Below are positions 9,879-64,000 of a stretch of DNA of 64,000 bases, in pieces. The notes beneath the pieces were generated by a model, which was given only the letters and a program-made list of their open reading frames with translations, had not been told where the DNA came from and ran no database searches. A program made the translations under genes and the position numbers. Position 1 is the stretch's first letter. Every line of letters begins with the position of its first letter. Source of the stretch: Sipunculus nudus (lineage: Eukaryota > Annelida > Sipuncula > Golfingiida > Sipunculidae); contig CM049311.1 of assembly GCA_026874595.1 (NCBI GenBank), positions 40,489,676 through 40,553,675 on the forward strand, read 5' to 3'.

Positions 9879-10016
9879 CTAGGAGTATATAAGAAGACGG
9901 GTGGCTTTCAACAGGTCATACACGGCACCCTTGAACTTGTAACTAGTATCCTCTAGCCGGTCCTTCCCTTCCTGGCCTGTCACTTCCAGAGTGGCATGAT
10001 ACAGATCTGCATTGAA
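9879..10016 (-). CDS. DNAI7: DNAI7/CASC1-like terminal coding exon
   Basis: This is the last coding exon of the dynein-associated ciliary protein DNAI7 (CASC1). Read on the minus strand, a ctgttgcag acceptor is followed by 45 codons starting FNADLYHATLEV, with a central YKFKGAVYDLL and ending ATRLLIYS, then a TAG stop at 9879-9881. From memory of the family, the human protein ends in a very similar ST-RLLSYS style. The exon enters in phase 0, matching the exon at 16382-16636. The family binds axonemal dynein and tubulin and acts in motile cilia; that role is family knowledge. The intron in front of it is 6.4 kb. Confidence 0.9.
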   Translation of the reverse strand, partial: FNADLYHATLEVTGQEGKDRLEDTSYKFKGAVYDLLKATRLLIYS

Positions 10017-14099: not shown

Positions 14100-15499
14100 T
14101 ATAATAAGATTGACCGATTGATATAGCTCTCCTGAAGAGTTATAATACAAGTAAAACTATGCCACTGATCAGTTTTAAAGTGTATACTTAATTAAACATA
14201 TACCATTTCATATCCTAACTCTACAGGGTACATCAAGCTAAAGAACATTATAAATACAGATTTCTAGGGACCCATGTATCACATTGCTCAGCTGAATTTT
14301 GTATAATTTTTGCATATGCAAAATATACTTAATTCTGTCACAGAATGGCATCTGTACTATTGTGTATCATAAGTGTTACTTTTTATTATTTACCCCCCTC
14401 CCTTAAGTCCATACCTATTCTGCCACCCTCATTAATTGAGTAAGGAGCCACCCCTGATAAAAGGCAAGGAAATAGTGTAACTATTTCAGGCATGGCAATG
14501 TGATATCTTTTCACTGTTTCCAATGAACTTTTCTCTGTGGAAGAGATTTCTTTAGCTTTCTCAATACATCATGCTGCATTGCTTTTCTTCTTGCAAGTTC
14601 TGTTGCTCTTTGAGATTTTTGTGATGGCAAAGCAGAGGTGAGATTTTCGGTCAGTTAGCTACTCACACTGTCAAGGTGCTGGACATTTAACTAGGCCTTG
14701 TTTTGGCCAAGCAGATATTCTCATTGCAGAGGATACTAAATTTGATGGTATACAAGGGACACAGTGTTTCTATGTTCTTGACTGTGGTTCCTCCCAGAGA
14801 GATGCTGGAGACTTTATAACTGTGGTTCAGTGATGCATTCCAGAGAGATGAGCCTTACATATTATCATTCTCAATTGGCAGTGGCAGAACTTGCTTCCTG
14901 TTGGTTGTATGTGCAACAAATTAATATTAATCTATATAACTGTCAGTGAAGCTTGCATTACACTCCATCACCGTAATAAGCTGCTGTAAGTCAAAATTAC
15001 CCTACTCCTGGTGGAAAGAAGCATAAACCAGGTGGGTTTCATTCCTTAATTATACTGAATTAGTAAATCAGATTATTTTACATATTTATTTTTTCTAAAT
15101 TGTTTTTTATTATTTGGGCATAAAAAAGTCTTGCCCTTCAGTTTTCTTCTAGGCAAGAACTTTGAATTAATCTGTAATCAGATATTTTCTTAATACCAAC
15201 ACATATATGAGATTTAAAGTAGCTTCTTTATTCTAATTGATTATATGACTTTTAAATTTTAGTTCCTTTTAGTTCCTTTTAGTTCCTTAGATTCCTAAGT
15301 ATTTTATTTTGATCACATTTTTTATCTGAACATCTCCAAATATAAAACATAAGGATTAGACTAATAGAGATGTTAACTTTGTAAAATTCCGGATGAGTTC
15401 TATTTTGTCATCATTAGTTTTAACTTATTTTGTGATATCCAGGGTTTTACTAACAGGAGACGGTTTTCCTCTGGTGTCACAATCTTCACTGCCATTCCA
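14100..15499. other. DNAI7 intron, unassigned
   Basis: AT-rich, with a small triplicate tagttcctttt at 15262-15290. No exon or element recognised. Confidence 0.5.
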
Positions 15500-16394
15500 T
15501 CCTATCATGTTCTTATGCTGGTGCCCTCATATCATGCACTTACACTGGTTTGTTCATATAATGTTCTTATGCTGGTTCCCTCAAATCATATACTTACACT
15601 TGTGCCCTGCATATAATGTGCTTTTGCTGGTTCCCTCATATCATGTACTAACACTGGTGCCCTCATATCATGTACTTACACTGGTTCCCTCATATCATGT
15701 ACTTACACTGGTTCCCTCATATCATGTACTTATGCTGGTGCTCCCATATCATGTACTTATACTGGTTCCCTCATATCATGTACTTATGCTGGTTCCCTAA
15801 TCATGTGCTTTTGCTGGTTCCCTAATATCATGTACTATCACTGGTGTCCTCATTTCATGTACTTACACTGGTTTAATCATATCATGTACTTATGCTGGTT
15901 CCCTCATATCATGTATTTATGCTGGTGCCCACATATCATGTACTTATACTGGTTCCCTCATATCATGTACTTATGCTGGTTCCCTCATATCATGTACTTT
16001 TGCTGCTTTGCTCATATCATGTTCTTAAGCTGGTTCCCTAATAAATGTACTAAATCTGGTGCCCTCATATAATGTACTTAAACTGGTTTGTTCATATAAT
16101 GTACTTATGCTGGTTCCCTCATATCATGTACTTATACACTTGTGCCCTGCATATAATGTGCTTTTGCTGGTTCCCTCATATCATGTACAAACACTGGTGC
16201 CCTCATATCATGTACTTACACTGGTTCCCTCATATCATGTACTTACACTGGTTCCCTCATATCATATACTTATGATGGTGCCCTCATATCATGCACTTAC
16301 ACTGGTGCCTTCATTTCATGAACTTACACTGGTTCCCTCATATCATGTACCTACACTGGTGCCCACATTTCATGTACTTACACTGGTTCCCTCA
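15500..16394 (-). repeat. 27-bp minisatellite carrying DNAI7 splice donors
   Basis: About 33 head-to-tail units of 27 bp. In gene sense a unit reads GAGGGAACCAGT|GTAAGT followed by acatgatat. The unit nearest the exon is the real exon end and donor (16382 is the last exon base). About ten units keep a perfect CAGTGTAAGT. A 540-bp block (20 units) is duplicated: 15535-15729 matches 16075-16269. Open frames seen across it arise because the unit is a multiple of three. Confidence 0.95.
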
Positions 16395-16636
16395 GCGTAG
16401 TCCTCTGAGAATGTCTCACTCATCTCGGTCATTTTCAGTTTGGTGGTGCGTTTCTTCGTGATAAGAAACAATGACCAATCATCCTCCAACAAAGCCTCAT
16501 CCTTCAAGTGTTCGGCTGCCTGAATCACAATACTGTTTTCATCGTTTACATCAGCATTCCACTTTGACCACTGATAAGCCATTGTTGATGCTGTCATGGC
16601 CATCTGCTGGTACAGCCGCTCCTCTGTCGCTGCATT
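16382..16636 (-). CDS. DNAI7: DNAI7/CASC1-like exon (penultimate), 3' end lies inside a minisatellite
   Basis: An 85-codon exon, phase 0 at both ends. It starts NAATEERLYQQMAMTAST, contains YQWSKWN and DDWSLFLITKKRTTKLKM, and ends SEDYAEGTS. The WSKWN block and the K-KM-E-SE-FSE stretch are recognisable DNAI7/CASC1 family signatures. The acceptor is ttgacag and the donor is AGT|GTAAGT. The last 13 exon bases plus the donor are repeated many times in the 27-bp array that begins at this donor (15500-16394). Read-through past the donor meets TGA within four codons. Confidence 0.93.
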
Positions 16637-18405: not shown

Positions 18406-18489
18406 CTACAAGAACACAAGTGGTTGATTATAGGAGAGCAACTGGATTGTTTGAAACATCAAGCTAGGTTTCCTTAGGATGAGTGTTCC

Positions 18490-19335
18490 CTGAACTAGTA
18501 TTAGAACTTAGCTAAGTTTCTCTGTGTGAGTTTTGTTTGCCTGGTCCAGTATTTGAACCTAGCTGAGTTTCTCTGTGTGAGTTTTCCTTGGACCAGTATT
18601 TGAACCAAGCTAAGTTTCTCTGTGTAAATTTCCCCCCTGGACCAGTATTTGAACCTAGCTAAGTTTCTCTGTGTTTATTTTCCCTTGGACTAGTATTTGA
18701 ACCTAGCTAAGTTTCTCTGTGTTAATTTCCCCCCTAGACCAGTATTTGAACCTAGCTGAGTTCCTCTGTATGGGTTTCCCCCTAGACCAGTATTTGAACC
18801 TAGCTAAGTTTCTCTGTGTTAATTTTCTCCCGGACCAGTATTTGAACCTCGCTAAGTTTCTCTGTGTGGGTTTTCCCCTGGACCAGTATTTGAATCTAGC
18901 TGAGTTTCTCTGTATTAATTTTCCCCCTGGCCCTGTATTTGAATCTAGCTAAGATTCTCTGTGTAAATTTTCCCCCTTGACCAGTATTTGAACCTAGCTT
19001 AGTTTCTCTATGTGGGTTTTCTCCTCGACCAGTGATTGAACCTAGTGAAGTTTCTCTGTGTTAATTTTCCCCTTGGACCAGTATTTGAACCTAGTTAAGT
19101 TTTGTATTAATTTTCCCCCATGCCTGTATTTGAACTTAGCTAAGTTTCTCTGTGGTAATTCCTCCCTGGACCAGTATTTGAACCTAGTTAAGTTCCTCTG
19201 TGTGAGTTATTTGAACCTAGCTTAGTTTCTCTGTGTGAGTATTCCCTGGATCAGTATTTGAACCTAGCTGACTTTCTCATTGTGGGTAATTTGAACCTAA
19301 ACAAGTTTTGTCTGTGTGAGTTTTGCCTCAACCAG
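18490..19335. repeat. About 48-bp minisatellite in a DNAI7 intron
   Basis: About 17 diverged units, plus-strand consensus around tttgaacctagctaag, tttctctgtgtgag and ttccccctggaccagta. Unit length varies through indels. It begins about 80 bp upstream (gene sense) of the acceptor at 18405. I see no exon-like or donor-like copy in it, unlike the 27-bp and 36-bp arrays. Confidence 0.9.
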
Positions 19336-19767: not shown

Positions 19768-19934
19768 CTTGATCTCAATTTCTACTTCAACAATGGCAGC
19801 AATGATGGTGAGCAGAGCGCTGTTCGTGGTGTGAGGTCTGAGCTCCCAGGACTGGTATGGCATGTTGATATGGGCATCTTGGATGAGAGCCATCTTTCCA
19901 AAGAAACAGGTTTTGAAGCTCAGCACACGGTTCT
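19768..19934 (-). CDS. DNAI7: DNAI7/CASC1-like exon with the family core LIQDAHINMPYQSWELRP
   Basis: A 167-nt exon (2 nt completing a split Glu codon, then 55 codons). It reads NRVLSFKTCFFGKMA, then LIQDAHINMPYQSWELRP, then a hydrophobic LLTIIAAIVEVEIEIK. The 18-residue core is the best conserved stretch of DNAI7/CASC1 known to me and settles the identity. The acceptor is gatttacag and the donor is AAG|gtattt. Frame is kept into EGDCC of the next exon. Confidence 0.97.
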
Positions 19935-30950: not shown

Positions 30951-31850
30951 GTGGTATTCTGAAGTAAAGTTTGGTGTACACAGGCAGTGTTCTGAAGTAC
31001 AGGTAGGTAAACAGAGTATTCTGAAGTACAGGTAGGTGTACACAGGCAGTATTCTGAAGTACAGATAGGCGAACACAGGGAATATTCTGAAGTACAGATA
31101 GGTGTACACAGGCAGTATTCTAAAGTACAGGTAGACAGACACAGTATTCTGAAGTACAGGTATGCGTACACAGGCAGTATTCTGAAGTACAGCTAGGTAG
31201 GCAAATAGTGTATTGTGAAGCACAGGTAGGCAGACACAGAGAGTATTCTGAAGTACAAGTAGGTGTATACAGGCATTATTCTGAAGTATAGGTAGGTGTA
31301 CACAGGCAGTATTTGGAAGTACAGGTAGGTGTACACAGGCATTATTCTAAAGTACAGGCAGGTGTGCACAGGTAGTATTCTGAAGTACATGTAGGTGTAC
31401 ACAGGCAGTATTTTGAAGTACAGGTAGGTGTACACAGGCAGTTTTCTGAAGTACAGGTAGGTGTAAACAGACAGTATTGTAAATTACAGGTAGGCAGACA
31501 CATAAAGTATTCTAAATTACAGGTAGGTGTATACAGGCATTATTCTAAAGTACAGGCAGGTGTACAAAGGTAGTATTCTGAAGTACATGTAGGTGTACAC
31601 AGGCAGTATTTTGAAGTACAGGTAGGTGTACACAGGCAGTATTCTGAAGTACAGGTAGGTGTACACAAGCAGTATTCTGAAGTACAGGTAGGCGTACACA
31701 GGCAGTATACTTTAGTACAGGTAGGTGTTCACAGGCAGTATGTTTAAGTACAGGTAGGTGTGCTTAAGCAGTATTCTGAAGTACAGGTAGGCATACACAG
31801 GCAGTATTCTGAAGTATAGGTAGGTGAACACAGGCAGTATGTTTCCTGTG
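30945..31850. repeat. 33-bp minisatellite in a DNAI7 intron
   Basis: About 27 units, plus-strand consensus acaggtaggtgtacacaggc followed by agtattctgaagt. It starts about 215 bp from the exon at 30625-30731 and is bordered on the low side by a LINE remnant. On the plus strand, antisense to the gene, each unit has a strong donor-like CAG|GTAGGT. Confidence 0.95.
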
Positions 31851-36649: not shown

Positions 36650-37058
36650 TTGTGTAGGTGTAGGTGTTTTGTGCCCTGTTATTTACACACCAGGCATAGG
36701 TGTTTTGTGCCCTATTATTTACACACCAGGTGTAGGTGTTTTGTGTCCTGTTATTTACACACCAGGTGTAGGTGTTTTGTGCCCTGTTATTTACTCAACT
36801 GGTTAAGGTGTTTTGTCTCCCTTTATTTACACACCAGGTCTAGGTGTTTTGTGTCCTGTTATTAACACACCAGGTTTAGGTGTTTTGTATCCTGTTATTT
36901 ACACACCCGGTGTAGGTGTTTTGTTTACTGTTATTTACACACCAGGTTTAGGTGTTTTGTATCATGTTATTAACACACCAGGTGTAGGTGTTTTGTACCC
37001 TGTTATTTACACACCCGGTGTAGGTGTTTTGTGTCCTGTTATTTACACAACAGGTGTA
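36650..37058 (-). repeat. 36-bp minisatellite, distal part
   Basis: About 11 units of 36 bp (plus-strand taggtgttttgtgtcctg then ttatttacacaccaggtg). This is the part of the array far from the exon, separated from the rest by a LINE fragment. Confidence 0.95.
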
Positions 37059-38208
37059 GGTGTTCCACAGGGCTCAGTCCTAGGTCCAAAAGAGTACTGT
37101 ATGTATACCCGACCTGTTGGCACCATTGTGAGGCAGCATAACATGTTGCATCACAGTTATGCTGACGACACCCAAGGTTACCTTGTGATCAAGTCATCTG
37201 CTAACTGGACGGATACTACCCTACAGATCCAGAAATGCATGTCCGCCATAAGCAACTGGATGAGCAACAACTGGCTGAAAATGAACAATTACAAATTTGA
37301 GTATATTATCTTCTACCCCATAACCGGCAGTTCTATCCCCGTGATTATGCTCTGTCACTGGGAGATGCCATTTACTTGCCATCTCCTAAAGTTAGAAACC
37401 TGGGGGCCACGCAGGACTGTTGTCTCACCATGGAGCGACACATCAGCTCTGTCTTGAGGTCATGTTATTACCAGATCAGATCCATTGACAGAATCTGGCG
37501 GTACATCACTACTGATGCATGCAAAATGCTGGTTCAAGCCTTAGTGACCTCGCGAATGGATTATGCCAATTCGCTTCTGTTTGGCATCACCAATGCTCAG
37601 ATTGGCAGGCTGCAGTACCTTCAGAATTGTGCTGCTCAGCTTATCACACTCACCCAGCGGCGAGCTCACATCAAACCGGTACTTATGGAGCTACATTGGC
37701 TGCCGGTGGAGTACAGACCTTGTTTTAAAATACTGTTGCTTACCTACAAAGCCCTCCATGGCTTGGCACCTTCATACCTAGCTGATATGATTAAGGAGTA
37801 TTGCCCGGTGTGTGCACTGAGGTTGGTCAATAAATCTCTCCTTGAGGTGCCAAGGGCCCGGACACAGTACGGAAAGAGATTGTTTAGATACTCCTCTGCT
37901 ATCCTCTGGAATAATCTTCCAGAACAAATCAAGGATGCCTCAGGTGTTCCATGTTTCAAAAGACAACTGAAAACACACCTTTTCCAGTTGGCCTATTATT
38001 AGCCATTATCATCCACTTTGTTTGGATTCTCGATTATTTAGTTTTCTGCATATCTATTTTTTAGTCATTTTAATTGTATTATCTGTCACTCAAATTTCTT
38101 TTTTAATCATCTTAATATATTTACTGTGTACAGTGCCTTAGAGCTATTGTATTTTAATACAGTGAATTTGGCACTTTAATAAACTAAAATAATAATAAAA
38201 AATAAAAA
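37059..38208 (+). mobile_element. 5'-truncated CR1/L2-type LINE inside the 36-bp minisatellite
   Basis: The plus strand codes reverse-transcriptase motif B (GVPQGSVLGP), the catalytic box (HSYADDTQ) and the long C-terminal region (YLPSPKVRNLGATQD, QRRAHIKPVLMELHWLPVEY, FRYSSAILWNNLPEQIK, FKRQLKTHLFQLAYY) with a stop near 38000. A frameshift lies around 37345. It ends in AATAAA and an AATAAT/A-rich tail. The 5' truncation is in motif B. It runs antisense to DNAI7. It is not active: most of ORF2, including the endonuclease, is absent. Confidence 0.93.
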
Positions 38209-39106
38209 TAGGTGTTTTGTGTCCTGTTATTAACACACCAGGTTTAGGTGTTTTGTATCCTGTTATTTACACACCAGGTGTAGGTGTTTTGTATCCTGTT
38301 ATTTACACACCAGGTGTAGGTGTTTAGTGCCCTGTTATTTACACAACAGGTGAAGGTTTTTTTTATTCCGTTATTTACATAGTAGATGTTGGTGTTTTGG
38401 GTCCTGTTATTGACACACCTGGTTTATGTGCTTTATCTCACTTTATTTACACAGCAAGTGTAGGTGTTTTGTGTCCTGTTATTTACACAATACGTGTAGG
38501 TGTTTTGTATCCTTTTATTAAAACACCAGGTCTAGGTGTTTTGTGCCCTGTTATAAACACAACCGGTTTAGGTGTTTTGTGTCCTGTTATTTACACAACA
38601 GGTGTAGGTATTTTGTGTCCTGTTATTTACACAACTGCTTTAGGTGTTTTGTCTCCCTTCATTTACACAGCAGGTATAGGCATTTTATGTCCTGTTATTT
38701 ACACAGCAGGAGTAGGTATTTTGTGTCCTGTTATTTACAATGCAGGTGTAGGTGTTTTGTATCCTGTTATAAACACAACCAGTTTAGGTATTTTGTGTCC
38801 TGTTATTTACACAACTGCTTTAGGTGTTTTGTCTCCCTTCATTTACACAGCAGGTATAGGCATTTTATGTCCTGTTATTTACACAGCAGGTGTAGGTTTT
38901 TTGTGTCTCCTGTTATTTACAATGCAGGTGTAGGTGTTTTGTGTCCAGTTATTTTCACAGCAGTTGTAGGTGTTTTATCTCATGTTATTTACACAAAAGG
39001 TGTTGGTGTTTTGTGTCCTGTTATTTACATAGCAGGTGTAGGTGTTTCATGTCCCTGTTATTTACACAACAGGTGTAGGTGTTTTTATGTCCTGTTATTC
39101 ACACAC
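38209..39106 (-). repeat. 36-bp minisatellite, exon-proximal part
   Basis: About 25 units ending exactly at the DNAI7 donor (39106/39107). In gene sense a unit reads ACACCTG|GTGTGTAAATAAC, which parallels the genuine exon end ACACCAG|GTGTGTGAATAAC. An internal block of five units (180 bp) is duplicated: 38615 onward matches 38795 onward. Confidence 0.95.
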
Positions 39107-39227
39107 CTGGTGTCGGTATCTCATAATCCTCCTCCATGGGTTCATCCTCCTGCTCAGGCTCTTCATCTTGTTTTAACTCCTCCTCCTCAGCCTCGTCATC
39201 CAGACCTTTCAGAGCAGCCATGACATC
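39107..39227 (-). CDS. DNAI7: DNAI7/CASC1-like exon, acidic region, donor abuts a 36-bp minisatellite
   Basis: A 121-nt exon starting DVMAALKGLDDEAEEEE, strongly acidic (DEEPEQEDEPMEED) and ending YEIPTP with a split Glu codon. Acidic low-complexity sequence at this place is typical of DNAI7. The acceptor is ttttctcag and the donor is CCAG|gtgtgtga. The 36-bp array (36.65-39.1 kb) starts exactly at this donor and its units resemble the exon end plus donor. Confidence 0.9.
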
Positions 39228-54692: not shown

Positions 54693-56720
54693 CTGTTTAC
54701 AGCTGGACGGACAAAGGACCATCACTATAGCTCAATCAGATGACTAACAGTCATAAAATGAATATTTTAGTTTCATCACTTACATAACTGTGTGTTAATC
54801 TGAAAATTGACTCAAGTCTCACCCCTTCTGTTCTCTGGCTGGGAAAGTTTAAGAATATTTCCTGATATCTTAAGTAAAACAAAGACTTTTTCCAGTTCCT
54901 CTGTGTACTTTAAATACCTTGATGAAATTACATGATGGTTTGACCATTCATATCAGTTTTGATCAAATGATCATGAAAATTAAGGGAAATAAAGGATGAA
55001 TTATAGATAAAATCTACAAATATCATTAAAAGACATTTGCAGTATTAGTATGCTGCATAGGAGAAAAATATATGATACACATCTTTACAACTAAATATCT
55101 ATGGTCAACTAGCCTTATAGAACTAAGTATACACTGAAGAAGTCAAGAGGTCAAACTGATATGAAAAAAACAATTGCTACACAGATTTCAAATATAGGTT
55201 TGCACAAAAGGATCATTTCTAATACACTTATATGAGACTAATAAAACAGCACTGGAAATAAGGTATCATTGCCACTTGCAAATGAGTTTAAATTATGCCA
55301 GGAATCTGGGGTAAAATGGCAAATCTGAGCTTGCCTTAGATCTCAACTATATAAAGGTATTCAGGGTTATTCCCCACCACTCTCATAGAAAACCTGATAT
55401 TTATAAGGGTTACTACTAGGCATAAAATTATTTTCTGCTTGCCAATTTTATAGATGCACCACCTACAGACTTCAATCTTATAATCTGTACCAATGAACCA
55501 AATATTGCTCATAATGCTCGGTGCTAAAACATTAGGCATATTGTTTTAATTTCTGCAGAGTATGAACAATCACACAAAAGTGACTGCTGGGATCCAAGAC
55601 TGAACAATTGGATATATAGAGTTTTATTTTAAGCATAAGAAGACATACATATATAACATTCAAAATATTTTGGAAATTAATGTCCATTTCAAATTCTGTC
55701 CAAAGTACTTATCATATTTAAATTAAAGTAGATAAAATAATACGGGTACACATATTGGCTGAATCATTATGATTATAACTGGACTAGTGGTTAGGGAGAA
55801 GACTCAAAATGGTGCTAGCAATGGTGATAGTGTCAGATACCAGTAGTTCTTATGCCTGTGACTGCCATTTGTATAAACAGTTAACCTTGTAACAATTTTG
55901 TTTGTGCATTTTTCCTTCAAAAGATTCCTGGGAGAAAGTTAAACTATGGGCCATATTGCCCACCTTGTGCTATCAGCCCAAGTTCTATTTTCCACAAACA
56001 TAAAAGTGATTTTATATTCAATAACTAAAAGCTATATGAATTGATGTGAAGATTTTCTTCCCTTTGCAAGTGACAATGATGGCTAATTAGTTTATTCAGC
56101 AGCTGAGTCTGGAAATATCTGTAAAGGCAGATTATTTTATATAATAATACTTAAAGCATATAAAGATAAAGGATGAGACTTCTTCATGTAAAGATTGTAC
56201 TCACTATTGATGACACCTGAAATACATATGGACCACCATAATGCAAGCTTACAAATGTTAAAATTCACTCTTAACATACAAAGATGTACAGCAATGTTGA
56301 TTATTTTGTCTCTGTCTAATATAAATGATCTTTCCCTACCTGTTCTTTGAATGGGTAATGAGTGAGTTAATTTGGGAGTAAATCAAGAGGAAAACAGCAT
56401 CATTCTCTAGCCATCTTTGGACTTTCTAGCATCATGCTGACATGCAAAAATGGTCACAGCACTGGATGAAATTGTATAAACCCATGTCACTGCCACTACT
56501 TTAAGCTAAACAGCAAATACATATATAATTTCAAACTTGCTTCAGTTCATAACCAAAAATGCAAAGGCATTCTAGTTTAGAGAGCAGCACCTGAATCATT
56601 CTGTAGTAACCATGCACCAGTATATCTGCATGTGTTTCTCCTAAACCAGGAGACAACCCTGACTGAGGCCACTGATGAACAGGGCATGCTTGGTGAGCCT
56701 GGATTTTAAATCATGCTCAC
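54693..56720. other. Unassigned non-coding
   Basis: AT-rich. A possible small DNAI7 exon at 54823-54861 is discussed as a finding. Nothing else is supported. Confidence 0.4.
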
Positions 56721-56721
56721 C

Positions 56722-59700
56722 TTGAGCTCTGTCTGCCTTTTTCATTTATCTGACCCATTTCTACACTAATGTCTCCTTCTCTGTCTCTGTCTCCCTCAGC
56801 TTGAGCTTTGTCTGCCTTTTTCATTTATCTGACCCGCTTCTACACTAATGTCTCCTTCTCTGTCTCTGTCTCCCTCAGCTTGAGCTTTGTCTGCCTTTTT
56901 CATTTATCAGACCCACTTATCGGTAATGTCTCCTCTTCTGTCTCCCTCACCTTGAGCTTTCTCTGCCTTTTTCATTTATCTGACCCAATTCTACACTAAT
57001 GTCTCCTTCTCTGTCTCTGTCTCCCACACCTTGAGCTTTGTCTGCCTTTTTCATTTATCTGACCCAATTCTACACTAATGTCTCCTTCTCTGTCTCTGTC
57101 TCCCACACCTTGAGCTTTGTCTGCCTTTTTCATTTATCTGACCCGCTTCTACACTAATGTCTCCTTCTCTGTCTCTGTCTCCCTCAGCTTGAGCTTTGTC
57201 TGCCTTTTCATTTATCAGACCCACTTATCGGTAATGTCTCCTCTTCTGTCTCCCTCACCTTGAGCTTTCTCTGCCTTTTTCATTTATCTGACCCAATTCT
57301 ACACTAATGTCTCCTTCTCTGTCTCTGTCTCCCTCAGCTTGAGCTTTGTCTGCCTTTTTCATTTATCTGACCCGCTTCTACACTAATGTCTCCTTCTCTG
57401 TCTCTGTCTCCCTCAGCTTGAGCTTTGTCTGCCTTTTCATTTATCAGACCCACTTATCGGTAATGTCTCCTCTTCTGTCTCCCTCACCTTGAGCTTTCTC
57501 TGCCTTTTTCATTTATCTGACCCAATTCTACACTAATGTCTCCTTCTCTGTCTCTGTCTCCCTCAGCTTGAGCTTTGTCTTCCTTTTTCATTTATCTGAC
57601 CCGCTTCTACACTAATGTCTCCTTCTCTGTCTCTGTCTCCCTCAGCTTGAGCTTTGTCTGCCTTTTCATTTATCAGACACACTTATCGGTAATGTCTCCT
57701 CTTCTGTCTCCCTCACCTTGAGCTTTCTCTGCCTTTTTCATTTATCTGACCCAATTCTACACTAATGTCTCCTTCTCTGTCTCTGTCTCCCACACCTTGA
57801 GCTTTGTCTGCCTTTTTCATTTATCTGACCCACTTATACACTAATGTCTCCTTCTCTGTCTCTGTCTCCCTCAGCTTGAGCTTTGTCTGCCTTTTTCATT
57901 TATCTGACCCGCTTCTACACTAATGTCTCCTTCTCTGTCTCTGTCTCCCACAACTTGAGCTTTGTCTGCCTTTTTCATTTATCTGACCCGCTTATACACT
58001 AATGTCTCCTTCTCTGTCTCTGTCTCCCAAACCTTGAGCTTTCTCTGCCTTTTTCATTTATCTGACCCGCTTCTACACTAATGTCTCCTTCTCTGTCTCT
58101 GTCTCCCACACCTTGAGCTTTGTCTGCCTTTTCATTTATCAGACCCACTTATCGGTAATGTCTCCTCTTCTGTCTCCCTCACCTTGAGCTTTCTCTGCCT
58201 TTTTCATTTATCTGACCCAATTCTACAGTAATGTCTCTTTCTCTGTCTCTGTCTCCCTCACCTTGAGCTTTGTCTGCCTTTTTTCCCATTTATCTGACCT
58301 GCTTTTAAACTAATTTCTCCTTTCCTGTCTCTGCCTCCCACACCTTGAGCTTTCTCTGCCTTTTTTCATTTATCTGACCCACTTCTACAATAATGTCTCT
58401 TTCTCTGTCTCTGTCTCCCTCACCTTGAGCTTTCTCTGCCTTTTTCATTTACCTGACCCAATTCTACAGTAATGTCTCTTTCTCTGTCTCTGTCTCCCTC
58501 ACCTTGAGCTTTCTCTGCCTTTTTCATTTATCTGACCCAATTCTATAGTAATGTCTCTTTCTCTGTCTCTGTCTCCCTCACCTTGAGCTTTGTCTGCCTT
58601 TTTTCCCATTTATCTGACCTGCTTTTAAACTAATTTCTCCTTTTCTGTCTCTGCCTCCCACACCTTGAGCTTTCTCTGCCTTTTTTCATTTATCTGACCC
58701 AATTCTACAATTATGTCTTTTTCTCTGTCTCTGTCTCCCTCACCTTGAGCTTTCTCTGCTTTTTTCATTTATCTGACCCAATTCTACAGTAATGTCTCTT
58801 TCTCTGTCTCTGTCTCTCTCACCTTGAGCTTTGTCTGCCTTTTTTCCCATTTATCTGACCTGCTTTTAAACTAATTTCTCCTTTTCTGTCTCTGCCTCCC
58901 ACACCTTGAGCTTTCTCTGCCTTTTTTCATTTATCTGACCCACTTCTACAATAATGTCTCTTTCTCTGTCTCTGTCTCCCTCAGCTTGAGCTTTGTCTGC
59001 CTTTTCATATATCAGACCCACTTATCGGTAATGTCTCCTCTTCTGTCTCCCTCACCTTGAGCTTTCTCTGCCTTTTTCATTTATCTGACCCAATTCTACA
59101 GTAATGTCTCTTTCTCTGTCTCTGTCTCCCTCACCTTGAGCTTTGTCTGCCTTTTTTCCCATTTATCTGACCTGCTTTTAGACTAATTTCTCCTTTTCTG
59201 TCTCTGCCTCCCACACCTTGAGCTTTCTCTGCCTTTTTTCATTTATCTGACCCATTTCTACAATAATGTCTCTTTCTCTGTCTCTGTCTCCCTCACCTTG
59301 AGCTTTCTCTGCCTTTTTCATTTATCTGACCCAATTCTACAGTAATGTCTCTTTCTCTGTCTCTGTCTCCCTCACCTTGAGCTTTCTCTGCCTTTTTCAT
59401 TTATCTGACCCAATTCTACAGTAATGTCTCTTTCTCTGTCTCTGTCTCCCTCACCTTGAGCTTTGTCTGCCTTTTTTCCCATTTATCTGACCTGCTTTTA
59501 AACTAATTTCTCCTTTTCTGTCTCTGCCTCCCACACCTTGAGCTTTCTCTGCCTTTTTTCATTTATCTGACCCAATTCTACAATTATGTCTTTTTCTCTG
59601 TCTCTGTCTCCCTCACCTTGAGCTTTCTCTGCCTTTTTCATTTATCTGACCCAATTCTACAGTAATGTCTCTTTCTCTGTCTCTGTCTCTCTCACCTTGA

Positions 59701-62700
59701 GCTTTGTCTGCCTTTTTTCCCATTTATCTGACCTGCTTTTAAACTAATTTCTCCTTTTCTGTCTCTGCCTCCCACACCTTGAGCTTTCTCTGCCTTTTTT
59801 CATTTATCTGACCCAATTCTACAATAATGTCTCTTTCTCTGTCTCTGTCTCCCTCACCTTGAGCTTTCTCTGCCTTTTTCATTTATCTGACCCAATTCTA
59901 CAGTAATGTCTCTTTCTCTGTCTCTGTCTCCCTCACCTTGAGCTTTGTCTGCATTTTTTCCCATTTATCTGACCCACTTCTACACCAATTTCTCCTTCTC
60001 TGTCTCTGTATCCCTCACCTTGAGCTTTGTCTGCCTTTTTCATTTATCTTACCCGCTTATACACTAATGTCTCCTTCTCTGTCTCTGTCTCCCAAACCTT
60101 GAGCTTTGTCTGCCTTTTTCATTTATCTGACCCGCTTCTACACTAATCCCCTTCTCTGTCTCTGACTCCCTCACCATGAGCTTTGTCTGCCTTTTTCATT
60201 TATCTGACCCGCTTCTACACTAATGTCCCCTTCTCTGTCTCTGACTCCCTCACCATGAGCTTTCTCTGCCTTTTTCATTTATCTGACCCAATTCTACAGT
60301 AATGTCTCCTTCTCTGACTCCTCACCTTGAGCTTTGTCTGCCTTTTTTCCCATTTATCTGACCTGCTTTTAAACTAATTTCTCCTTTCCTGTCTCTGCCT
60401 CCCACACCTTGAGCTTTCTCTGCCTTTTTTCATTTATCTGACCCACTTCTACAATAATGTCTCTTTCTCTGTTTCTGTCTCCCTCACCTTGAGCTTTCTC
60501 TGCCTTTTTCATTTATCTGACCCAATTCTACAGTAATGTCTCTTTCTCTGTCTCTGTCTCCCTCACCTTGAGCTTTCTCTGCCTTTTTCATTTATCTGAC
60601 CCAATTCTACAGTAATGTCTCTTTCTCTGTCTCTGTCTCCCTCACCTTGAGCTTTGTCTGCCTTTTTTCCCATTTATCTGACCTGCTTTTAAACTAATTT
60701 CTCCTTTTCTGTCTCTGCCTCCCACACCTTGAGCTTTCTCTGCCTTTTTTCATTTATCTGACCCAATTCTACAATTATGTCTTTTTCTCTGTCTCTGTCT
60801 CCCTCACCTTGAGCTTTCTCTGCCTTTTTCATTTATCTGACCCAATTCTACAGTAATGTCTCTTTCTCTGTCTCTGTCTCTCTCACCTTGAGCTTTGTCT
60901 GCCTTTTTTCCCATTTATCTGACCTGCTTTTAAACTAATTTCTCCTTTTCTGTCTCTGCCTCCCACACCTTGAGCTTTCTCTGCCTTTTTTCATTTATCT
61001 GACCCACTTCTACAATAATGTCTCTTTCTCTGTCTCTGTCTCCCTCAGCTTGAGCTTTGTCTGCCTTTTCATATATCAGACCCACTTATCGGTAATGTCT
61101 CCTCTTCTGTCTCCCTCACCTTGAGCTTTCTCTGCCTTTTTCATTTATCTGACCCAATTCTACAGTAATGTCTCTTTCTCTGTCTCTGTCTCCCTCACCT
61201 TGAGCTTTGTCTGCCTTTTTTCCCATTTATCTGACCTGCTTTTAGACTAATTTCTCCTTTTCTGTCTCTGCCTCCCACACCTTGAGCTTTCTCTGCCTTT
61301 TTTCATTTATCTGACCCATTTCTACAATAATGTCTCTTTCTCTGTCTCTGTCTCCCTCACCTTGAGCTTTCTCTGCCTTTTTCATTTATCTGACCCAATT
61401 CTACAGTAATGTCTCTTTCTCTGTCTCTGTCTCCCTCACCTTGAGCTTTCTCTGCCTTTTTCATTTATCTGACCCAATTCTACAGTAATGTCTCTTTCTC
61501 TGTCTCTGTCTCCCTCACCTTGAGCTTTGTCTGCCTTTTTTCCCATTTATCTGACCTGCTTTTAAACTAATTTCTCCTTTTCTGTCTCTGCCTCCCACAC
61601 CTTGAGCTTTCTCTGCCTTTTTTCATTTATCTGACCCAATTCTACACTAATGTCTCCTTCTCTGTCTCTGTCTCCCTCACCTTGAGCTTTCTCTGCCTTT
61701 TTCATTTATCTGACCCAATTCTACAGTAATGTCTCTTTCTCTGTCTCTGTCTCTCTCACCTTGAGCTTTGTCTGCCTTTTTTCCCATTTATCTGACCTGC
61801 TTTTAAACTAATTTCTCCTTTTCTGTCTCTGCCTCCCACACCTTGAGCTTTCTCTGCCTTTTTTCATTTATCTGACCCAATTCTACAATAATGTCTCTTT
61901 CTCTGTCTCTGTCTCCCTCACCTTGAGCTTTCTCTGCCTTTTTCATTTATCTGACCCAATTCTACAGTAATGTCTCTTTCTCTGTCTCTGTCTCCCTCAC
62001 CTTGAGCTTTGTCTGCATTTTTTCCCATTTATCTGACCCACTTCTACACCAATTTCTCCTTCTCTGTCTCTGTATCCCTCACCTTGAGCTTTGTCTGCCT
62101 TTTTCATTTATCTTACCCGCTTATACACTAATGTCTCCTTCTCTGTCTCTGTCTCCCAAACCTTGAGCTTTGTCTGCCTTTTTCATTTATCTGACCCGCT
62201 TCTACACTAATCCCCTTCTCTGTCTCTGACTCCCTCACCATGAGCTTTGTCTGCCTTTTTCATTTATCTGACCCGCTTCTACACTAATGTCCCCTTCTCT
62301 GTCTCTGACTCCCTCACCATGAGCTTTCTCTGCCTTTTTCATTTATCTGACCCAATTCTACAGTAATGTCTCCTTCTCTGACTCCTCACCTTGAGCTTTG
62401 TCTGCCTTTTTTCCCATTTATCTGACCTGCTTTTAAACTAATTTCTCCTTTTCTGTCTCTGCCTCCCTCAGCTTGAGCTTTGTCTGCCTTTTTCATTTAT
62501 CTGACCCGCTTCTACACTAATGTCTCCTTCTTTGTCTCTGTCTCCCTCAGCTTGAGCTTTGTCTGCCTTTTCATTTATCAGACCCACTTATCGGTAATGT
62601 CTCCTCTTCTGTCTCCCTCACCTTGAGCTTTCTCTGCCTTTTTCATTTATCTGACCCAATTCTACACTAATGTCTCCTTCTCTGTCTCTGTCTCCCACAC

Positions 62701-64000
62701 CTTGAGCTTTGTCTGCCTTTTTCATTTATCTGACCCACTTATACACTAATGTCTCCTTCTCTGTCTCTGTCTCCCTCAGCTTGAGCTTTGTCTGCCTTTT
62801 TCATTTATCTGACCCGCTTCTACACTAATCCCCTTCTCTGTCTCTGTCTCCCACACCTTGAGCTTTGTCTGCCTTTTTCATTTATCTGACCCGCTTATAC
62901 ACTAATGTCTCCTTCTCTGTCTCTGTCTCCCAAACCTTGAGCTTTGTCTGCCTTTTTCATTTATCTGACCCGCTTATACACTAATGTCTCCTTCTCTGTC
63001 TCTGTCTCCCAAACCTTGAGCTTTGTCTGCCTTTTTCATTTATCTGACCCGCTTCTACACTAATCCCCTTCTCTGTCTCTGTCTCCCACACCTTGAGCTT
63101 TGTCTGCCTTTTTCATTTATCTGACCCGCTTATACACTAATGTCTCCTTCTCTGTCTCTGTCTCCCAAACCTTGAGCTTTGTCTGCCTTTTTCATTTATC
63201 TGACCCGCTTATACACTAATGTCTCCTTCTCTGTCTCTGTCTCCCAAACCTTGAGCTTTGTCTGCCTTTTTCATTTATCTGACCCAATTCTACAGTAATG
63301 TCTCCTTCTCTGTCTCTGACTCCCTCACCTTGAGCTTTGTCTGCCTTTTTCATTTATCTGACCCGCTTATACACTAATGTCCCCTTCTCTGTCTCTGACT
63401 CCCTCACCATGAGCTTTGTCTGCCTTTTTCATTTATCTGACCCGCTTATACACTAATGTCTCCTTCTCTGTCTCTGTCTCACAAACCTTGAGCTTTGTCT
63501 GCCTTTTTCATTTATCTGACCCGCTTATACACTAATGTCTCCTTCTCTGTCTCTGTCTCCCACACCTTGAGCTTTGTCTGCCTTTTTCATTTATCTGACC
63601 CGCTTATACACTAATGTCCCCTTCTCTGTCTCTGACTCCCTCACCATGAGCTTTGTCTGCCTTTTTCATTTATCTGACCCGCTTATACACTAATGTCTCC
63701 TTCTCTGTCTCTGTCTCACAAACCTTGAGCTTTGTCTGCCTTTTTCATTTATCTGACCCGCTTATACACTAATGTCTCCTTCTCTGTCTCTGTCTCCCAA
63801 ACCTTGAGCTTTGTCTGCCTTTTTCATTTATCTGACCCACTTATACACTAATGTCTCCTTCTCTGTCTCTGACTCCCTCACCTTGAGCTTTGTCTGCCTT
63901 TTTCATTTATCTGACCCGCTTATACACTAATGTCTCCTTCTCTGTCTCTGTCTCCCAAACCTTGAGCTTTGTCTGCCTTTTTCATTTATCTGACCCGCTT
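56722..64000. repeat. 79-bp minisatellite/satellite array, runs off the window
   Basis: About 90 head-to-tail units of roughly 79 bp, plus-strand cttgagctttgtctgcc, tttttcatttatctgaccc, gcttctacactaatgtctcc, ttctctgtctctgtctccct, cac. Several subtypes exist (gcttctacac, aattctacagt, ccatttatctgacctgctttt, tatcagacccacttatcgg). A block of 2064 bp is tandemly duplicated (about 58262-60325 and 60326-62389). In gene sense most units contain CTCAAG|GTGAG or a close variant, a 5' splice donor consensus. Confidence 0.98.

Follow-up and report, generated by a model that had tools for sequence, protein, structure and literature searches.

DNAI7 exons in the window

The window, a 64-kb stretch of animal-like DNA, carries on its minus strand a DNAI7 gene, also known as CASC1 or IC97. 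Human DNAI7, which gave a full-length match to PDB chain 8j07_k3, served as the tblastn query. Six exons were detected in order on the minus strand (E values from 3.9e-14 to 8.8e-4), at 35837-35700, 30742-30641, 19935-19768, 17868 onward, 16624-16385 and 10019-9882, and a seventh (18405-18316, minus strand) was placed by eye. For human DNAI7 before about residue 365, no tblastn match was detected within the 64 kb.

The exon that bears the array is the penultimate mapped exon (16382..16636, minus strand), delimited by phmmer, tblastn, its junctions and the reading frame. It comprises 255 nt or 85 codons, with phase 0 at both ends. The exon matched the DNAI7 chain 9fqr_Hn in phmmer (E 1.3e-11) and human DNAI7 in tblastn (E 8.8e-12), which also placed other exons on that strand, while the Pfam family Casc1_C scored 12.2 bits on this exon alone, under the cut-off of 26.2. 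The assignment of this exon to DNAI7, proposed in an earlier note on this DNA, was confirmed by phmmer and by tblastn across several exons in order. The last exon (9879..10016, minus strand), identified by tblastn (E 8.8e-4 with the whole human protein and 2.3e-5 with its C terminus alone), joins in frame to the exon ending at 16382. It follows the acceptor ttctgttgcag/TTC (a slash marks the exon-intron border throughout) and holds 45 codons (FNADLY...TRLLIYS, 10016-9882) before a TAG. These last 45 residues show 30% identity to human DNAI7 over 46 aligned residues, ending in TRLLIYS against human TRLLSYS. The intron between the two exons is about 6.4 kb long and contains the bulk of the array.

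A 27-bp array in register with the exon-intron junction

TRF detected a minisatellite at 15495-16394, read here on the minus strand, with a period of 27, 33.3 copies and 80% matches, which extends 13 exonic bases past the donor. Wraparound alignment resolved it into 33 full units plus a ragged 34th. The exon-intron junction itself forms unit 1 (16394-16368): on the minus strand this unit reads TGAGGGAACCAGT/GTAAGTACATGAAA, that is, 13 exonic and 14 intronic bases with the donor between them, and it differs from the majority unit at a single base of 27. The tandem unit spans the exon-intron boundary in register. Homology to the unit ends 13 bases into the exon, the next two upstream 27-mers matching at 5 of 27 positions each. 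Searching the window for the junction 17-mer AGGGAACCAGTGTAAGT with up to two mismatches gave 15 matches, each of them located in 15592-16392; 100 shuffles yielded 0.01 on average, and chance is therefore ruled out. The earlier estimate of about 33 copies of a 27-bp unit, in register with the exon end and donor, is in agreement with TRF, the unit alignment and the shuffles. The array had also been said to start exactly at the real donor; the register stands, but the array precisely begins 13 bases before that donor. Its far end, formerly given as 15500, was moved by TRF to near 15495.

On the opposite strand of the array a stop-free frame of 151 aa (15617-16069, plus strand) shows no sign of being a gene; long stop-free frames are found on that strand because 27 is a multiple of 3. 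A scan of the array for bacterial promoters and terminators, which is not applicable to an animal gene, gave no promoter excess. A search for relatives in a prokaryotic contig collection gave 26 stretches that matched a pattern, of which tblastn confirmed none, a result uninformative on animals.

Copies of the splice donor

The native donor, AGT/GTAAGT (16376..16381, minus strand), was recognized from the sequence, from its in-frame, gapless connection to the last exon, and from the U1 duplex. The same motif is present in ten units, the native one counted, with the +1 position at 16381 (native), 16327 (unit 3), 16300 (unit 4; donor at 16295..16300) and, for seven further decoys within 15538..16246, at 16246, 16219, 15866, 15706, 15679, 15597 and 15543, all on the minus strand. 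Unit 2 reads AGT/GTAGGT, with +1 at 16354, and together with the GTAAGT of unit 3 makes up the two decoys nearest to the exon (16322..16354, minus strand). Ten intact donors plus one GTAGGT bear out the earlier count of about ten. By aligned columns the number of donors is 11, but one of these belongs to unit 10, in which a 2-base insertion interrupts the site. GT at +1/+2, also by aligned columns, is present in 14 of the 33 units with the native one included; among the 32 downstream units it was kept in 13 and lost in 19. The splice signal is found in many but not all units, and the units contain consensus donors, as in the minisatellite of human IFI6.

U1 duplex energies were computed with the 5' end sequence of U1. 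The native donor gave -7.8 kcal/mol and the nine GTAAGT decoys -6.4 to -8.3, while five other DNAI7 donors, with borders set by eye, gave -5.4 to -10.0 kcal/mol. By U1 pairing the decoys equal the native donor and fall inside the spread of values obtained for these five. At -1 the native donor unusually carries a T, where the five others read AAG/GT. A single-strand fold of 16440-16260, sought as a structure masking the decoys, showed nothing unusual (z 0.17).

Predicted consequence of decoy use

If the native donor were skipped, the first in-frame stop would be the TGA at 16370..16372 (minus strand), the end of the exon being read through as EGTS-VST-stop. Since this TGA of unit 1 comes first in the read-through, any decoy use would be predicted to yield one and the same protein, 45 residues shorter and with three others added. 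The truncation proposed earlier for the use of a distal donor is supported by this translation, with the loss corrected from 46 codons to the 45 of the last exon. An in-frame TGA had been ascribed to each unit; the G of this TGA persists in only 27 of the 33 units, and later indels shift the frame, but the TGA of unit 1 suffices.

By arithmetic, the distance from the stop to the new exon junction is 27k-12 nt, namely 15 and 42 nt for the two nearest decoys and 69 nt or more from unit 4 (27 x 3 - 12 = 69). Nonsense-mediated decay follows a rule of 50-55 nt between a stop and the last exon junction, and unit 4 is the first decoy that places the stop more than 55 nt before it. Only transcripts from the third decoy onward would therefore be candidates for decay.

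Growth and decay of the array

Units 6-12 (16074..16259, minus strand) recur 20 units on as units 26-32 (15719-15530), with 182 of 189 bases identical (0.963), while no more than 0.926 was reached when the unit order was shuffled 300 times. A block of seven units is duplicated within the array in the one haplotype available, which indicates that blocks, in addition to single units, contributed to its growth. The mean identity of units 2-33 was 0.877 for the exonic half and 0.884 for the intronic half. Such equal decay is what a neutral array should show, and it suggests that no part of the copies is being maintained.

The columns at -1/+1 over the 33 units read TG in 15, CA in 13, another dinucleotide in 5 and CG in none. 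The 900-bp array contains no CpG at all, and the observed-to-expected CpG ratio of the whole 64-kb window is 0.26, indicating strong depletion. On the simplest reading, a CpG at the junction decayed both ways, in which case the loss of donors would be a mutational matter. The five units with neither TG nor CA at these columns are unaccounted for by CpG decay.

Other arrays in the window

Minisatellites are common in this region. As counted from TRF, the 64 kb hold six arrays that have 10 or more copies and unit lengths of 27-79 bp. Only the 27-bp array touches a mapped junction, the next nearest array ending 82 bases from one. With arrays this dense and many donors genome-wide, some arrays would be expected to straddle donors by chance. 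The units of the six arrays, drawn from 32 TRF rows with arrays of units of 145 bp and more left out, were compared with both borders of the seven exons (84 comparisons, cut at z 3). Two comparisons exceeded the cut, one being the 27-bp array against its own donor (score 54, z 14.7). The other was a 48-bp array (18488-19203) in the neighbouring DNAI7 intron, the one that ends 82 bases from an acceptor, compared with the acceptor of the exon that begins at 19934 (score 24, z 5.2). Its derivation from that acceptor was rejected: the match is gapped, the array lies on the other side of the exon, and of fewer than 2000 random 60-mers taken from the window, 10 equal or exceed its score. The match is therefore taken as chance.

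Two arrays of a near-identical 36-bp unit (36656-37064 and 38209-39117, plus strand) flank an ORF of 233 aa (37301-37999), which resembles, by eye, the terminal part of a LINE reverse transcriptase and had no match in Pfam; the arrangement looks as if the element had landed in one array. A 79-bp array (56716-64000) with 92 or more copies continues past the end of the window and is strongly strand-skewed; its minus-strand unit contains the donor-like AAGGTGAG, with no exon border found nearby. Another DNAI7 intron holds a 33-bp array (30954-31840, plus strand) whose consensus units each include the donor-like CAGGTAGGT, though not on the strand of the gene but on the opposite one. Pfam gave no match on seven long ORFs of the window. 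The interspersed repeats of the window presumably resemble those of molluscs.

Origin of the array

The array is probably a minisatellite of the mirage type, born from the junction, in which the native donor is preferred and the decoys are seldom or never used. A 27-bp segment consisting of the last 13 bases of the DNAI7 exon and the first 14 of the intron would have been duplicated in tandem, and slippage and unequal exchange, later with block duplication, would have expanded it to about 33 copies into the intron. An array overlapping a donor copies that donor in any case; no selection for decoys is required. The native donor is most likely the main one used, because it is joined to the exon body, and the decoys would be rarely used or silent. 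A neutral array with at most leaky use of the decoys is most likely. The following counts against this explanation. The decoys match the native donor in U1 pairing and the three nearest are intact, and a strong preference for the native donor is left unexplained by donor strength. In human IFI6, moreover, downstream units are used, and the five units with neither TG nor CA stand outside the CpG reading.

The birth of the array from the junction, which the earlier note had put forward, is favoured by comparison of the protein sequences. The exon end EGTS/FNADLY aligns without a gap to human EETE/FHSTLY, both exons being in phase 0. The exonic half of the unit lies at the expected coding position, which favours a junction that came before the array. 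A later overwrite of the same length would also be compatible with this alignment. In such a history an intronic minisatellite would have reached the exon and overwritten its last 13 bases and the donor, so that the splice site would come from the array. In its favour, EGTS differs from EETE in half of its four residues, and the native donor carries T at -1 against AAG/GT in the others. The overwrite, however, would need to have preserved both length and frame at the gap-free, phase-0 junction, and the rest of the exon is without unit-like sequence (best 27-mer 15/27, mean 7.3); we consider this order of events unlikely. It is likewise improbable that harmful decoys lost their GT by selection, with +1/+2 changing faster, a process compatible with birth from the junction and a preferred native donor. 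Among the 26 pairs of adjacent columns, the +1/+2 dinucleotide is indeed the one preserved least often, in 13 of 32 units or, once the later blocks are set aside, in 8 of 20, and the triplet from -1 to +2 has eight states, the most among 25 triplets. However, column 7, remote from the donor, is strongly variable too, being kept in only 21 of 33 units, TG and CA are the products of plain CpG decay, and variants shared by duplication leave few independent events. The three decoys nearest to the exon, which should be the most dangerous, are intact.

The same intact decoys, within a tandem of ten strong donors, could also be read as parts of a working switch in which regulated decoy use would lead to a short DNAI7 or to transcript decay, tuned by copy number. 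Human parallels are consistent with such a switch: repeat units of IFI6 can act as donors (PMC4526556), and the repeat number of CBS differs between people, with 16-21 copies (PMC2630376), as far as these accounts go. Against it, GT was lost in most downstream units, the 45 residues at stake are conserved to human, and exonic and intronic columns decay alike; we regard a working switch as very unlikely. Still less probable is a copy-number-tuned rheostat of splicing, in which the number and state of the decoys would set the share of DNAI7 transcripts shortened or decayed; if it were true, polymorphism of array length would alter cilia function between individuals. The neutral, junction-born array remains the preferred reading.

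Comparison with known junction-spanning repeats

Mirage minisatellites were reportedly first described by Canestro et al. in 2002; the CBS VNTR is said to have been studied by Lievers et al. in 2001, and the minisatellite of IFI6 (6-16), providing multiple splice donors, by Turri et al. in 1995. In amphioxus, mirage minisatellites, the nearest published parallel to the DNAI7 array, are described for Adh3 and for the globin genes BflGb6 and BflGb9, and according to the authors they seem not to disturb regular splicing (PMC3087553). In the features given by this source, the DNAI7 array is alike in having minisatellite-like units across an exon-intron boundary, a splice signal in many but not all units, and block-wise turnover, which is concerted in the mirage case. 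The amphioxus Adh3 units of 10-72 bp cover the 27 bp of the DNAI7 unit, while the copies number 33 in DNAI7 against 6 and 3 in two BflGb6 haplotypes (PMC3087553). In contrast to the mirage cases, the DNAI7 array lies in another gene and at a single donor boundary, and is known here from the genomic sequence of one haplotype.

The human CBS gene carries a 31-bp VNTR, c.1444_1467+7(16_21) (PMC2630376), at exon 13-intron 13 (PMC1395315). As these sources describe it, the CBS unit likewise joins the exon end to the intron start (24 + 7 bases, against 13 + 14 in DNAI7), in tandem from the real donor, and its 16-21 copies are polymorphic in people and associated with enzyme activity; the DNAI7 array is longer. 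In human IFI6, two downstream units of the minisatellite are described as being used as donors, giving three mRNAs (PMC4526556), the 1995 paper being cited in PMC2572611 and PMC2915984. The IFI6 and DNAI7 arrays are alike in that minisatellite units offer donor sites at an exon end, whereas the downstream units of IFI6 are used in mRNA (PMC4526556) and the DNAI7 decoys are known from sequence alone. Also in the parts of the literature consulted, a VNTR is related to the splicing of miR-137 (PMC6692358), and a 27-bp minisatellite of variable copy number in abalone lies inside an intron and not at a junction (PMC6905558). New introns may arise from human tandem repeats located at exon-intron boundaries (PMC2812944), and junction-spanning minisatellites have been suggested to give rise to new introns (PMC3087553, PMC2812944).

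The DNAI7 array belongs to a known type of repeat, of which it is a large and clean case; the gene is new as far as the cited papers go, DNAI7 itself not having been searched by name. It presents eleven donor-like sites (ten GTAAGT and one GTAGGT) spaced at multiples of about 27 bp, and every site after the first leads to the same predicted truncated protein; this makes it a natural test case for the choice that the spliceosome makes between identical, consecutive donors. The short list of junction-spanning minisatellites also gains a gene, and perhaps a lineage.
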